A stretch of 64,000 nucleotides of DNA, taken from assembly GCF_900604345.1 (NCBI RefSeq), contig NZ_LR026983.1, positions 2,108,001-2,172,000 of the forward strand, given 5' to 3'. Made by a program: the position numbers and the translations under genes. Positions 58,167 through 62,242 of this stretch are shown here, piece after piece. Source of the stretch: Maliibacterium massiliense (GTDB lineage Bacteria; Bacillota; Clostridia; Christensenellales; Maliibacteriaceae). Below the pieces are notes generated by a model. It worked only from the letters and a program-made list of their open reading frames with translations, did not search any database and was not told where the DNA came from. Positions within the stretch are counted from its first letter, which is position 1. Every line of letters starts with the position of its first letter.

Positions 58167-58195
58167 TTGACTTTATCCTGCGCTTATAATATACT
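58167..58195 (+). promoter_or_regulatory. Promoter of the tRNA cluster
   Basis: TTGACT (58167-58172), 17 bp, TATACT (58190-58195), 25 bp before the first tRNA. Confidence 0.75.
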
Positions 58196-58220: not shown

Positions 58221-58296
58221 GGGAGCATAGCTCAGCTGGGAGAGCACTTGCCTTACAAGCAAGGGGTCACAGGTTCGAGCCCTGTTGTTCCCACCA
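58221..58296 (+). tRNA. tRNA-Val (anticodon TAC)
   Basis: The acceptor GGGAGCA pairs with TGTTCCC. The anticodon stem CTTGC/GCAAG holds loop CTTACAA. The T-arm is ACAGG/CCTGT, and CCA is encoded at 58294-58296. Confidence 0.97.
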
Positions 58297-58301
58297 AGGA
58301 T

Positions 58302-58378
58302 GGCCCGGTAGCTCAGTTGGTTAGAGCGCTAGCCTGTCACGCTAGAGGTCGAGAGTTCGAGCCTCTTCCGGGTCGCCA
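58302..58378 (+). tRNA. tRNA-Asp (anticodon GTC)
   Basis: The acceptor GGCCCGG pairs with CCGGGTC, with a G-T pair. The anticodon loop is CTGTCAC in stem CTAGC/GCTAG. CCA is encoded. Confidence 0.97.
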
Positions 58379-58382
58379 TTAT

Positions 58383-58458
58383 GCCTCGGTAGCTCAGTCG
58401 GTAGAGCAAGGGACTGAAAATCCCTGTGTCAGTGGTTCGATTCCACTCTGAGGCACCA
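58383..58458 (+). tRNA. tRNA-Phe (anticodon GAA)
   Basis: The anticodon loop CTGAAAA sits in stem AGGGA/TCCCT. The acceptor GCCTCGG pairs with CTGAGGC, with one wobble. CCA is encoded. Confidence 0.97.
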
Positions 58459-58463
58459 ATCAT

Positions 58464-58538
58464 GCGGGAGTGGCTCAGTGGTAGAGCGTCGCCTTGCCAA
58501 GGCGAATGTCGCGAGTTCGAATCTCGTCTTCCGCTCCA
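58464..58538 (+). tRNA. tRNA-Gly (anticodon GCC)
   Basis: The anticodon loop TTGCCAA sits in stem TCGCC/GGCGA. The acceptor GCGGGAG pairs with CTTCCGC. CCA is encoded. Confidence 0.97.
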
Positions 58539-58542
58539 ATTT

Positions 58543-58616
58543 GGCGCCATGGCCAAGCGGTAAGGCACGGGACTGCAAATCCCTTACCCCCAGTTCGATT
58601 CTGGGTGGCGCCTCCA
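58543..58616 (+). tRNA. tRNA-Cys (anticodon GCA)
   Basis: The anticodon loop CTGCAAA sits in stem GGGA/TCCC. The acceptor GGCGCCA pairs with TGGCGCC. The encoded CCA (58614-58616) is also the first three bases of repeat array 1. Confidence 0.97.
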
Positions 58617-59093
58617 GCGGCAAGTTGCCGCATCCAATACCGCAGTTTACTTAGGTAGATTGCGGTATTTTTGTGCCCGCCAGTAAATATCCATATCGTA
58701 AGACTCTGCCAGCGGCAGGTTGCCGCATCCAATACCGCAGTTTACTTAGGTAGATTGCGGTATTTTTATGCCCGCCAGTAAATATCCATATCGTAAGACT
58801 CTGCCAGCGGACAGTGTCCGCGCTCAAGTTCGCAAATCTCTTTGGCGGTTTGTGCATTTTTTATTGCCTGAAAGGGGGTGGGCATCCATATCGCAAAACC
58901 CTACCAGCGGCAAGTTGCCGCACCCCAAAGGCGCATCTTCCATTGTGAGGATGCGATTTTTGTTGCCCGAAACAAAGCGTCCAAATCGTCAAGCTTTGCC
59001 AGCGGACAGTGTTCGCGCTCAATACCGCAGCCTACGTTTGCGCGTTACGGTATTCTTGTACCCGAGATAAGGCATCCATCTCGTAAAGCCCTG
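58614..59093 (+). repeat. Array 1: five tandem ~95-bp two-hairpin repeat units
   Basis: Units are 58614-58708, 58709-58803, 58804-58903, 58904-58998 and 58999-59093 (95, 95, 100, 95, 95 bp). Units 1 and 2 differ at only two positions; the others are strongly diverged. Each starts CCAGCGG and forms hairpin 1 with stem GCGGCA/TGCCGC (units 1, 2, 4) or GCGGAC/GTCCGC (unit 3; unit 5 has GTTCGC with a G-U pair). Hairpin 2 follows: AATACCGCA/TGCGGTATT in units 1-2 and a different but still paired stem in unit 4 (GCATC/GATGC). Most are followed by a T-run, a G-CCCG-like box and a conserved tail resembling ATCCATATCGTAAG. No open reading frame fits the array. Confidence 0.9.
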
Positions 59094-59200
59094 CCAAACA
59101 ACGAAAGAATCGCGATTTTCTGCCGTGTTTTTTAGCTCTAACGGACACTCTTTCCAAAACAAACGGCCTGTTGAACTAAGTACGGTATTTTTCTGTCACA
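59094..59200 (+). repeat. Degenerate continuation of array 1
   Basis: CCAAACAACG at 59094 sits where the next unit should start. A piece like hairpin 2's right arm (TACGGTATTTTTCTG) recurs near 59180. The hairpins are no longer intact. No gene is visible in this stretch or in the rest of the gap up to 59479. Confidence 0.5.
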
Positions 59201-59263
59201 GCTATGGCAAACAAAGGACCGGCCGCCTGTATAAGTGGACTCTCGATGCGTTCGCCTTATTGC

Positions 59264-59302
59264 GGACAGGCGAGCAATAGGGGGATCGCCTGCCCGATTG
59301 CT
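59264..59302 (+). other. Possible H-type pseudoknot upstream of the surface-protein gene
   Basis: Stem 1 is 59264-59273 with 59286-59295 (CAGGCGA/TCGCCTG, plus GG/CC beyond one mismatch). Bases in its loop, GCAAT (59274-59278), are complementary to ATTGC just downstream (59297-59301). That nested pattern is an H-type pseudoknot. The likely surface-gene promoter lies downstream of it, so its role is unclear. Confidence 0.45.
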
Positions 59303-59351
59303 ATTACCATAAAACTCCGCAGTGTATTATGCGAAAAATGGCTGAGAGTGG

Positions 59352-59381
59352 TTGCAGGTCACTACGAAAAAATGGTATCAT
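59352..59381 (+). promoter_or_regulatory. Candidate promoter of the surface-protein gene
   Basis: TTGCAG (59352-59357), 18 bp, TATCAT (59376-59381). An AT-rich TATAAT at 59386-59391 is a second candidate -10 without a clear -35. Confidence 0.5.
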
Positions 59382-59479
59382 TTATTATAATATGTATATT
59401 TATAGGATAACCTTTTCAATGGAGGGGTTTTCAGCGCTAAGCATGCCTCCTGCGAGCAAACAAAAGGGGGTATTTTGTT

Positions 59480-61453
59480 TTGAAAAAAAAGATTCTCTCA
59501 ATCCTCGTAGGCCTCGTGCTTATTGTTGGGCTCACCCCGACGATGGCACTGGCGGCTGGCGGAACAGCGTGTCAGCAGGGCGACGCTTGCACTACGCACG
59601 AAGCGGCGATTGGTTCGACGCATTATGATACGCTTCAGGAGGCGCTCGAAGCAGGCGGCAATGTGCGGCTGCTTCAAAATGTTGAAGTGCATGCTGTCAT
59701 AACTGTGGATAAGCCTACGGTACTTGATCTTGGCGATTACACAATTACGAATAAGGTTGAGGCGGAGAGCCCCCTTCATGTAGACGCGGAGAGCTTTACC
59801 GTGAACGCGGGAAGCGGCGGCATGGTGATCCCGCAGGACAATACGTCTTCTAAGGGGTTTATCGAGGTCATTTCTGCCAGCAGTTTTACCTTGAACGGTG
59901 GTACCTACAGCGGAAACACCGACAGCGGCGCGTTTTTTAGACTTCACAGCGGAGCTTCCGGCGCTGAGGTAAAGATAAACAACGTAACGGCAACAACCAA
60001 TTTCGAGGTATTTAATCGTGCCGATACACTCGATACAATCCATGTAACGGTCTCCGGCGGAAGCTATCGGGTAGGGTCAAGGGCGTTTATGTTCGATGTG
60101 TATGACTGCGAAAATAGCCCCATTATATTTGACGGCGTTACGATTACGGCGGATCGCGGTCCGTGTGTTGATCTCAGCGGCGGGAACAGCGTTTTTTCGG
60201 ACTGCAACTTTACCGTTACCGGGAACTTTACCGGAGGGCATCCCTGGAGCCGCGCCGCCATTGGCGTTGCTTATGAAGGGAAGGTGACGGTCAAGAGCGG
60301 CACCTACACAGCCCAGGGCGCAAGCATGGGGCAGAATGAAGGCTATGGCGTCTATATCTATACGTCCGGCGGGACGCTTCATATAGAGGGCGGCACCTTT
60401 GCCGGCACAACCGCATCGCTGAGAGCGGATGTAGATAAGAACACCTACGGGAACCCCTCTACCATTCATGTGCTGGACGGAAATTTTGATGGAGATATAC
60501 TGGCGCCCACCGAAACAGGATTGGAAAGCATCGTGATTACCGATGGGAAGTTCACGGGTATTACGGACAAAACGCTGGCGCAGGGCAATAACCTCTCTGT
60601 CTTTGGCGGCACATTCGACAACTCGGTGAAAGATTTTGTCTCCAATGACCTGGAATTCGAGCACAACAGCAATGGGACGTACACTTACCATGAAACCCTG
60701 CAGGACGCCATGAAAGACGTGACCTCCAATACGACCATCTCGGCAGTGCATAACCCGGCGGCAGGCGGCAGCGCCTATAAGGCCACGCTGGTCTTTAACG
60801 ATGAATCAGGCAGGACCATCGAGCTTGTTGCGGATGCGGGCGGAAAGATTACCCTTCCCAGCATTGGCCGCGGCGGATACATATTCCTGGGCTGGGATGA
60901 TGGCAGCGATGCGCCGATTGCGGCGAACCAGGATTATACGCTTACAGAAGATAAGACGCTTACCGGTGTATGGAAAGTGCTCACAAAGATAAAAACCGCG
61001 GCGAAAGCGGCCACCTGTACGCAGAACGGCAATATCGAATACTGGTACTGCCCGGAACTGCAATCATATTTCAGCGATGAAGCATTGACGAAGAAAATCG
61101 CGCTGAAAGACACTGTGATTGCTGCGGCACATGGAAAGACTGCGCTTCGGAACGCCAAGGAAGCCACCTGCATAGAAGAAGGTTACACGGGTGATATCGT
61201 TTGCCAGATATGCGGTGATGTGCTTGAACAGGGTACGATCATTGCCAGGAAGGAGCATACCTATCAGGAGGGGAAGTGCATCCTTTGCGGCACGGCAGAC
61301 CCGAGCGCAAAGCCGGTTGAGCCGACGCCCCCTTCCGGCACGGATGCGCCGAAGACAGGGGACAGCAGCATGTTGCTCTGGTGCTTGCTCCTGCTGATAA
61401 GCGGCTTGGGCGTTGCTGGCACGGCGCTGTACCGGAAAAAGACGGCTAAGTAA
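59480..61453 (+). CDS. Sorting-signal-anchored surface protein with beta-helix-like region
   Basis: The 657-residue protein has a signal peptide (MKKKILSILVGLVLIVGLTP, ending ALAAGG). A long Gly/Thr/Val-rich stretch (about 40-430) has regular short beta turns, as in right-handed beta-helix proteins. An InlB/Listeria-Bacteroides-repeat-like unit follows (TLVFNDESGRTIELVADAGG, then GYIFLGWDDG), then a Cys-containing segment with C-x2-C pairs. The C-terminus has APKTGDSS, a hydrophobic helix and RKKTAK, a sortase-type signal with APKTG in place of LPxTG. The start is TTG 59480 behind AAAGGGGG. It is less GC-rich than the housekeeping genes and lies between the two repeat arrays. The function is unknown; adhesion or glycan binding is plausible. 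Confidence 0.85.
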   Translation: MKKKILSILVGLVLIVGLTPTMALAAGGTACQQGDACTTHEAAIGSTHYDTLQEALEAGGNVRLLQNVEVHAVITVDKPTVLDLGDYTITNKVEAESPLHVDAESFTVNAGSGGMVIPQDNTSSKGFIEVISASSFTLNGGTYSGNTDSGAFFRLHSGASGAEVKINNVTATTNFEVFNRADTLDTIHVTVSGGSYRVGSRAFMFDVYDCENSPIIFDGVTITADRGPCVDLSGGNSVFSDCNFTVTGNFTGGHPWSRAAIGVAYEGKVTVKSGTYTAQGASMGQNEGYGVYIYTSGGTLHIEGGTFAGTTASLRADVDKNTYGNPSTIHVLDGNFDGDILAPTETGLESIVITDGKFTGITDKTLAQGNNLSVFGGTFDNSVKDFVSNDLEFEHNSNGTYTYHETLQDAMKDVTSNTTISAVHNPAAGGSAYKATLVFNDESGRTIELVADAGGKITLPSIGRGGYIFLGWDDGSDAPIAANQDYTLTEDKTLTGVWKVLTKIKTAAKAATCTQNGNIEYWYCPELQSYFSDEALTKKIALKDTVIAAAHGKTALRNAKEATCIEEGYTGDIVCQICGDVLEQGTIIARKEHTYQEGKCILCGTADPSAKPVEPTPPSGTDAPKTGDSSMLLWCLLLLISGLGVAGTALYRKKTAK

Positions 61454-61467
61454 TGCAGGATAACGAG

Positions 61468-61505
61468 AAGGCTGACAGGGGAATCATCCCTGCCAGCCTT
61501 TTTTA
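61468..61505 (+). terminator. Terminator of the surface-protein gene
   Basis: AAGGCTG-ACAGGG pairs with CCCTG-CCAGCCTT around a short loop, then a T-run. It starts 15 bp after the stop codon. Confidence 0.85.
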
Positions 61506-61658
61506 TTGGCGCGTATGGCAATATTCGATTTGCTTGTATGATGGTCGCTTTTCGCCGCTTATAAGCGCAAGCAAAAAGCGTTTGAACATCGACAAGACCC
61601 TGAGCTGATAACCGAATCCAGCAGACGGCAGGGGGCTCATCTTTGATCCATCGCGCTG

Positions 61659-62036
61659 CCAGCGGCAAGCTGTCGCATCCAAAAACGCATTCTCCATTGT
61701 GGGGATGCTGTTTTTTGCTGCCCGAAGCGAAGCATTTATATTGCAAGCCTTGCCAGAGGCGTGACGCTGTACCCAATAGCGCAATGCACTTCGGTGGATT
61801 GCGCTATTTCTGTTGGCCCCAAAAAGGAGCCATTTTGTAAAGCCCTTCGGCAGGCAGTATCCGCACAAAAGATCGCAGCCAACATTTGCGGGTTGCGATC
61901 TTTTCAGGTACAAAAAGAGGCATTCATATCGTCAGGCCCTTGCCGGCAGACAGTGCCTGCCATTGCGCTTTATTTTGAAGCGTACGGTGTTTTATTGACC
62001 TGAAAACAGCATTTTATCGTGAAACGCTGCCCAAAT
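61659..62036 (+). repeat. Array 2: four diverged units of the same repeat family
   Basis: Units start near 61659, 61753, 61849 and 61943, about 94-96 bp each, in the same orientation as array 1. The first closely matches array-1 unit 4 (CCAGCGGCAAG, the loop CCATTGTG and the box TGCCCGAA). Hairpin 2 in the second unit is AATAGCGCAAT/ATTGCGCTATT, 11 bp perfect, and in the third AAAAGATCGCA/TGCGATCTTTT, also 11 bp. These stems share almost no sequence with array 1 yet keep the fold. The fourth unit is weaker. The 926-bp gap 61454-62379 otherwise holds two terminators and one possible remnant. Confidence 0.85.
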
Positions 62037-62039
62037 GCC

Positions 62040-62066
62040 AAAGACCCGCTTATGCAGCGGGTCTTT
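62040..62066. terminator. Hairpin at the end of array 2
   Basis: AAAGACCCGC pairs with GCGGGTCTTT (10 bp) around TTATGCA. The A and T flanks are symmetrical, so it may act in both directions. It could end transcription through array 2 or, from the other side, of the minus-strand surface gene 310 bp away. Confidence 0.65.
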
Positions 62067-62242
62067 GCTTTGATATGCGGAACGATGCGCAATATATCGT
62101 TTGTGGAACAAGTGCGAACGTCATAACGCCACAGAAGGTCTTTTATGGGGTGCATAGGCTTAGCATCTTATCGCACCAGAGGATGTTCCAAGCCGACGGT
62201 ACCGACAAGTATGGACGCCTGCGGCGGCTAAAAGCTGCAGAA

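Follow-up and report, generated by a model that had tools for sequence, protein, structure and literature searches.

The window analyzed here, a stretch of 64,000 nucleotides, lies in the genome of Maliibacterium massiliense (G000), which is a single contig of 2,422,126 bases; window coordinates equal genome coordinates minus 2108000. It contains a tRNA operon followed by five tandem units of about 95 bp and, 3 kb behind tRNA-Cys, by a second array (Table 1). The five units had been reported in an initial annotation of this DNA and are real; counted from the CCA, they start at 58614, 58709, 58804, 58904, and 58999 and measure 95, 95, 100, 95, and 95 bp, and the "nine units" of which that annotation also spoke are these five together with the second array at about 61659-62032. 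A point overlooked at the time is that the opening CCA of the array is the encoded CCA of tRNA-Cys (58543-58616). The promoter-like site ahead of the operon is weak on its own, since the consensus scan returned seven sites in the region against 3.1 expected. Between the two arrays is an ORF of 657 aa (59480-61453), a possible cargo gene, with, by eye, a signal-like start and a sortase-type tail; it gave a PF09479 match below threshold, and no other match was reported.

Table 1. Features of the tRNA-Cys locus in window coordinates, with units 1 to 5 listed from the first base behind their opening CCA.
Feature	Position	Strand	Basis	Details
Promoter-like site before tRNA operon	58167..58195	+	consensus scan	TTGACT-17-TATACT
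tRNA operon Val-Asp-Phe-Gly-Cys	58221..58616	+	ARAGORN, Rfam tRNA	encoded CCA 58614-58616, start of array
Unit 1	58617..58711	+	model, 96.3 bits	H1 58617-58631; H2 58636-58669; right end 58689-58711
Unit 2	58712..58806	+	model, 94.8 bits	right end 58784-58806
Unit 3	58807..58906	+	model, 83.2 bits	H1 GCGGACAGTGTCCGC; H2 58831-58854; right end 58884-58906
Unit 4	58907..59001	+	model, 93 bits	H1 GCGGCAAGTTGCCGC; H2 58932-58955; right end 58979-59001 (diverged)
Unit 5	59002..59096	+	model, 85.2 bits	H1 GCGGACAGTGTTCGC; right end 59074-59096
Probable truncated unit before second array	61611..61658	+	by eye, no model match	degenerate 23-nt right end ATCTTTGATCCATCGCGCTGCCA
Second array, four units	61659..62032	+	model, 82.6, 53.8, 56.7, and 22.8 bits	61659-61755, 61753-61850, 61847-61945, 61943-62032

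Behind the CCA, a unit of this kind (type I) consists of a hairpin, H1, with a 6-bp stem and a 3-nt loop, a spacer, a second hairpin, H2, with a stem of about 12 bp and then a T-run, a GCCCG box, and a tail (for example, ATCCATATCGTCAAACCCTGCCA); some tails are able to form a weak third stem, H3. The H1 pairings given in the initial annotation are correct for units 1, 2, and 4 (GCGGCA/TGCCGC) and for unit 3 (GCGGAC/GTCCGC), and unit 5 has GCGGAC/GTTCGC, with one G-U pair; the arms of H2 also change together among the window units, as had been stated. Many fully paired versions of H1 exist, including GCGGCAAGTTGCCGC, GCGGACAGTGTCCGC, GCAGCGTGACGCTGC, GCAGGCGGTGCCTGC, and GTGGGCAGCGCCCAC. For covariation, 50 units were aligned by sequence only, 39 of them from G000 (units of at least 50 bits, those below being omitted) and 11 from relatives (five from G017, two from G023, and one each from G033, G055, G218, and G133). 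Paired cells amounted to 96% in H1, 88.6% in H2, and a weak 66.3% in H3. Pair changes affecting both sides were found in 153 cells, a count of sequences and not of independent events, against 51.5 in shuffles (0 of 500 reached 153) and 21 to 42 in slid controls, which supports the earlier proposal of selection on structure. The claim that all units keep the same fold is borne out by this covariation and not by minimum energy throughout: folded singly, units 1, 2, and 4 were far more stable than their shuffles (z = -4.5, -4.0, and -3.3), whereas units 3 and 5 were not (z = -0.3 and -0.4). H2 is a candidate transcription terminator, as it joins a GC-rich hairpin to a T-run, of at least four in 15 of 16 first units; a strict terminator scan flagged H2 of window units 3 and 4 and not that of units 1, 2, and 5. 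In each array, the first unit probably belongs to the transcript of the tRNA operon, as its trailer and terminator.

Rfam 15 contained no match to the units even at a relaxed threshold (58500-62100), in line with the initial annotation, which knew no named family with this layout; at the gathering threshold the window yielded tRNA only, and 16 related loci yielded tRNA, tmRNA, and 5S only. Among the papers listed in searches of the open-access literature, none was seen to describe repeats of this kind, and the relevant passages of PMC8040213 name no such family.

We built a covariance model from 20 units, searched G000 with E values up to 1, and compared the matches with the 49 Rfam tRNAs and the tmRNA. 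Fifty of the 57 matches start at most 0.7 kb downstream of a tRNA or tmRNA in the same orientation, and the CCA is the exact starting point of 16 arrays: those at Leu(aag), Leu(taa), Thr(ggt), Ala(cgc), Ser(gct), Arg(ccg), Val(cac), Arg(cct), Arg(acg), tmRNA, Ala(ggc), Pro(cgg), Val(gac), two Met(cat), and Cys. Five further tRNAs have their first model match 156 to 393 bases behind the tRNA; four of these carry a module of another kind, type II (CCACGTCG...), at the CCA, and the fifth, Asn, has an ordinary terminator and a tRNA fragment ahead of the unit. The remaining seven matches are the four units of the second window array and three weak ones (16.4 to 22.2 bits). Seven other tRNA ends were inspected: ordinary terminator hairpins follow five of them, and of the remaining two, one leads into an rRNA spacer and the other into a coding frame. 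The five window units form a single array within a family that occurs throughout the genome in association with tRNA ends.

The right end of a unit reads ATCYWTTTYGTM-N8-(C/A)CA, 23 nt in all, which places a CCA-like end once more at the distal border. When 136 segments behind tRNA ends of G000, G033, G055, G017, and the scanned contigs were examined for ATCYWTTTYGTM with up to two substitutions, (C/A)CA lay at one fixed offset in 44 of 157 matches, compared with 3 to 9 at ten other offsets and with 4 of 114 at that offset in opposite-strand segments; by recount, 22 of 47 G000 matches and 22 of 110 others are of the fixed-offset kind, some of the latter being due to chance. A stricter version (up to three mismatches) gave 24 matches in G000, every one of them closing a type I or II module of an array, and none in the reversed control; no gene-bearing or larger element with the same right end was therefore found in that genome. 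The distance from ATC to the final CA in the right ends is 23 nt, equal to that from the T-loop TTC to the CCA in tRNA (TTCRANNC-N12-CCA), and from this resemblance it is possible that the right end mimics a tRNA 3' end.

Modules of types II, IV, and V are closed by the same right end as type I. Type II modules are about 200 to 300 bp long and comprise CCACGTCG, a long terminator hairpin, and an inverted-repeat core around GTCACGCT. They sit at the CCA, stacked with type I, at four tRNA ends of G000 (224464+, 712419+, 1071307+, and 19112-) and in the tmRNA array (1593763+), alternating with type I in an order that varies between tRNAs, and they were also present at the CCA in G033 (L294, L303, L304, and L317). 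Type V, CCACGTCGCGGCAAGTTCCGCG...ATCTATTTTGTATGAACGACACA, has three copies in G033 (L290, L300, and L307), two of them at the CCA and the third some 120 bases downstream of tRNA-Ser.

Arrays have a polarity. Across 13 multi-unit arrays the model score drops as units lie farther from the tRNA (24 downward steps and 4 upward; permutation P = 5e-5), and the best-scoring unit is the first in 12 of the 13, one of these 12 being a tie. H1 is fully paired in 15/16 first units compared with 22/34 later units, and a T-run of at least four is found in 15/16 compared with 27/34. We then compared units of at least 35 bits that have array-mates (n = 35, with the second window array counted with the first): the closest relative lay in another array for 32 of the 35 and in the same array for 3, against a shuffled mean of 2.58 (245 of 500 shuffles gave at least as many). 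Because nearest relatives are so placed, tandem duplication is ruled against as the main mode of growth, and by the same test later units are not decayed copies of the first unit of their own array. The same-array exceptions are window units 1 and 2, which are 98% identical and look like a tandem duplication, and, by a narrow margin, the first unit at Leu(taa).

At tRNA-Arg(acg) of G000, a single unit lies between the CCA and a trailer, and this trailer aligns without gaps, from its first base, with the post-CCA trailers of G033 Arg(acg) and G055 Arg(ccg) (38/50 positions); since the match begins at the first base, the unit sits exactly between the CCA and an older trailer. The local score was 56, followed by 43, 38, 38, 31, and 29, with a median of 19 over 57 trailers. 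Four other tRNA ends carry this trailer type with scores of 31 to 43, and the filled/empty comparison therefore fixes the register of insertion better than it does orthology. The 110 bases behind the CCA are identical in L314 (G033 tRNA-Arg(acg)) and L330 (G055 tRNA-Arg(ccg)), and further tRNA ends also carry trailers with AATCCGAACC...GGTTCGGATT. tRNA-Pro(cgg) retains an intact ordinary terminator past its last unit; of all first units, those of the arrays at Arg(acg) and Pro(cgg) score best. No intact displaced trailer or terminator was seen behind most of the older arrays inspected in G000. Between the congeners G033 and G055, 29 loci gave 28 ortholog pairs (one locus was partnerless), and homology stops exactly at the CCA in 12 pairs and no more than 8 bases past it in a further 12; as loci with ordinary terminators are included, the break is not specific to units and alone is no proof of insertion.

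Type I units have a patchy distribution, being found in 17 of 297 genomes of the order, G000 included, at E values up to 1e-4. In G017, 6/7 loci start exactly on the CCA, and order-wide 10 of the 26 loci examined do so (in G017, G033, G023, G006, G055 twice, G218, G133, G186, and G260); of the remaining 16, some are second units, some lie at a greater distance, and some are without a tRNA. A scan of GTDB for CCAGCGGCAAGTTGCCGC returned 105 stretches with 109 matches, 31 of them exactly on a tRNA or tmRNA CCA and 6 behind a T-arm-like piece; by hand sorting, these 37 matches all fall among the 51 Firmicutes stretches, and none among the 54 others. Of 30 listed matches in Massiliimalia, Heritagella, and two uncultured Clostridia, 10 lie exactly on the CCA. 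The exact tRNA-plus-H1 pattern was found class-wide in 3 of 391 genomes, with 11 matches in G000, and is thus rare. The bodies behind an CCAGCGGCAAGTTGCCGC H1 vary, type IV being like type I and type III, from ruminant Clostridia, unlike it. In ruminant Clostridia MAGs, units separate a tRNA from the tRNA or 5S gene that follows it (L124, L169, and L174). On SVTY01000004.1, a 148-bp stretch made of a tRNA-Pro 3' half and a type III unit occurs twice (L130, 1193-1340, and L153, 7436-7583); the copies are identical at 142/148 positions and resemble an attachment-site duplication.

Profile searches were made for enzymes that might move such repeats. The Y1 transposase profile (PF01797) had no match in G000, G017, G133, G055, and G023 and had matches in G001 and G002, which are free of units; with no match in G000 or G017, we rejected an element driven by RAYT or IS200. 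A retroelement was rejected as well, there being no match to reverse transcriptase (PF00078) in G000, G017, G133, G033, and G055. The tyrosine recombinase family PF00589 has six matches in G000, and none of these proteins lies at an array as its cargo (positions compared by eye). As for viral vectors, the exact 18-mer occurred in two contigs, with no unit behind it in either, and the right-end pattern in none.

REP/REPIN and other nonautonomous elements of IS200/IS605 type (PATE-like) are short, structured, dispersed repeats with a hairpin by a short target. Our units resemble them in a hairpin beside the target (H1 at the CCA; the right-hand stem H3 is weak), in asymmetric ends with a fixed right end, in insertion that is oriented (on the strand of the tRNA) and leaves the target to the left, and in having no visible inverted terminal repeats; unlike them, they target only tRNA CCA ends, carry a terminator, and stack, and G000 and G017 have no Y1 match. 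Although nonautonomous, oriented, and hairpin ended, the units are not classed with the IS200/IS605 kind because its defining enzyme was searched for and gave no match. Compared with MITEs, the left end is a hairpin and the right end a different motif; the CCA on both sides may be a 3-bp duplication, but some of the right ends are ACA. The repeats of E. coli tyrT, with the rtT RNA, are tandem and lie directly 3' of a tRNA gene at one locus; the likeness is in this position, whereas those repeats are longer and repeat part of the tRNA, and our units occur at many loci and repeat CCA alone. Integron cassette arrays also add modules next to a fixed site, so that their order would record age; our units occupy many fixed sites and carry no cargo genes, and no integron integrase was shown. 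The tRNA-targeted retrotransposons of Dictyostelium and yeast (TRE5-A and Ty) likewise use the neighborhood of tRNA genes as a safe location where the genome is compact; those eukaryotic retroelements sit some distance from the gene, whereas the units are exact on the CCA, measure about 95 bp, and have no reverse transcriptase match in G000.

The main rival to transposition is a functional tRNA trailer, in which H1 would aid 3'-end maturation and H2 terminate transcription, with spread by gene conversion or ectopic recombination and selection. It accounts for polarity and structure: the structure is best preserved in the first unit, species-specific versions occur at many tRNAs within one genome, and the units adjoin the CCA. 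Conversion requires a resident copy, however, and so cannot seed new tRNAs; nor is there a role here for stacks of alternating modules or for a fixed right end past the terminator, and many tRNA ends in G000 manage with ordinary terminators. We consider this explanation unlikely. It is less probable still that the units are attachment-site remnants left by integrative elements that targeted tRNAs through a tyrosine recombinase and were lost. tRNA 3' ends are established integration sites, G000 encodes six PF00589 proteins, tRNA 3' fragments precede 6 of the 109 GTDB matches, and the duplicated stretch on the ruminant Clostridia contig (type III, L130 and L153) does repeat a piece of tRNA-Pro. 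The type I units of the arrays carry the CCA only, with no longer piece of tRNA, and have a period near 95 bp; against this rival too, no larger member has the same right end, all 24 matches being in arrays.

The initial annotation had left the choice between a small RNA in tandem and a structured DNA element. An array with one RNA per unit would agree with the compensatory changes and with the location behind a tRNA operon, but a terminator-like H2 in each unit should stop transcription at unit 1, the consensus scan found no promoter-like site on the plus strand inside the units, and structure is lost in later units; we regard this proposal as very improbable. The second alternative came closer, in that the unit is a dispersed repeat on tRNA and tmRNA CCA ends with a terminator-like hairpin, and distal copies lose structure and score.

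The reading that we favor is that the units are probably nonautonomous, terminator-carrying, mobile-like miniature elements inserted immediately behind the CCA that tRNA and tmRNA genes encode. Insertion would take place on one strand and at one point, 3' of the CCA, with the left-end H1 abutting the CCA, the H2 and T-run of the body supplying a new terminator, and the right end renewing a CCA-like end; as the tRNA would keep its CCA and gain a terminator, the cost of insertion is expected to be low. In repeated rounds, new units would arrive next to the tRNA and older ones would be pushed outward while losing structure, which would give layered arrays whose units are copies drawn from a pool spread over the genome. 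Oriented addition 3' of the CCA, with renewal of the CCA and supply of a terminator, would account for the observed placement, polarity, and dispersal, for stacking, and for the one filled/empty comparison, and it stands beside the compensatory change and the fixed right end that we observed. We infer that a recombinase or transposase acts in trans, that position within an array records age, and that H2 stops transcription.

More tentatively, these repeats may be a new class of bacterial miniature mobile element that lands on the CCA end of tRNA-like genes and is moved by an undescribed enzyme, perhaps one with single strands or CCA-ended RNA as its substrate; types I, II, IV, and V would have in common only their architecture (a CCA-abutting hairpin, a terminator, and the fixed 23-nt right end), and their stacks would be ordered in time. 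The family looks like an undescribed kind of element with tRNA ends as its safe landing place, and, given its fixed right end and exact target, candidates for the enzyme could be sought and tested directly. If this is true, it would represent safe-site targeting at tRNA genes in a prokaryote, with tolerance built in, as the tRNA does not lose its CCA and receives a terminator; each stack would preserve, in order, the successive waves of insertion, and repeats that stand unannotated 3' of tRNA genes in gut Clostridia would be explained.
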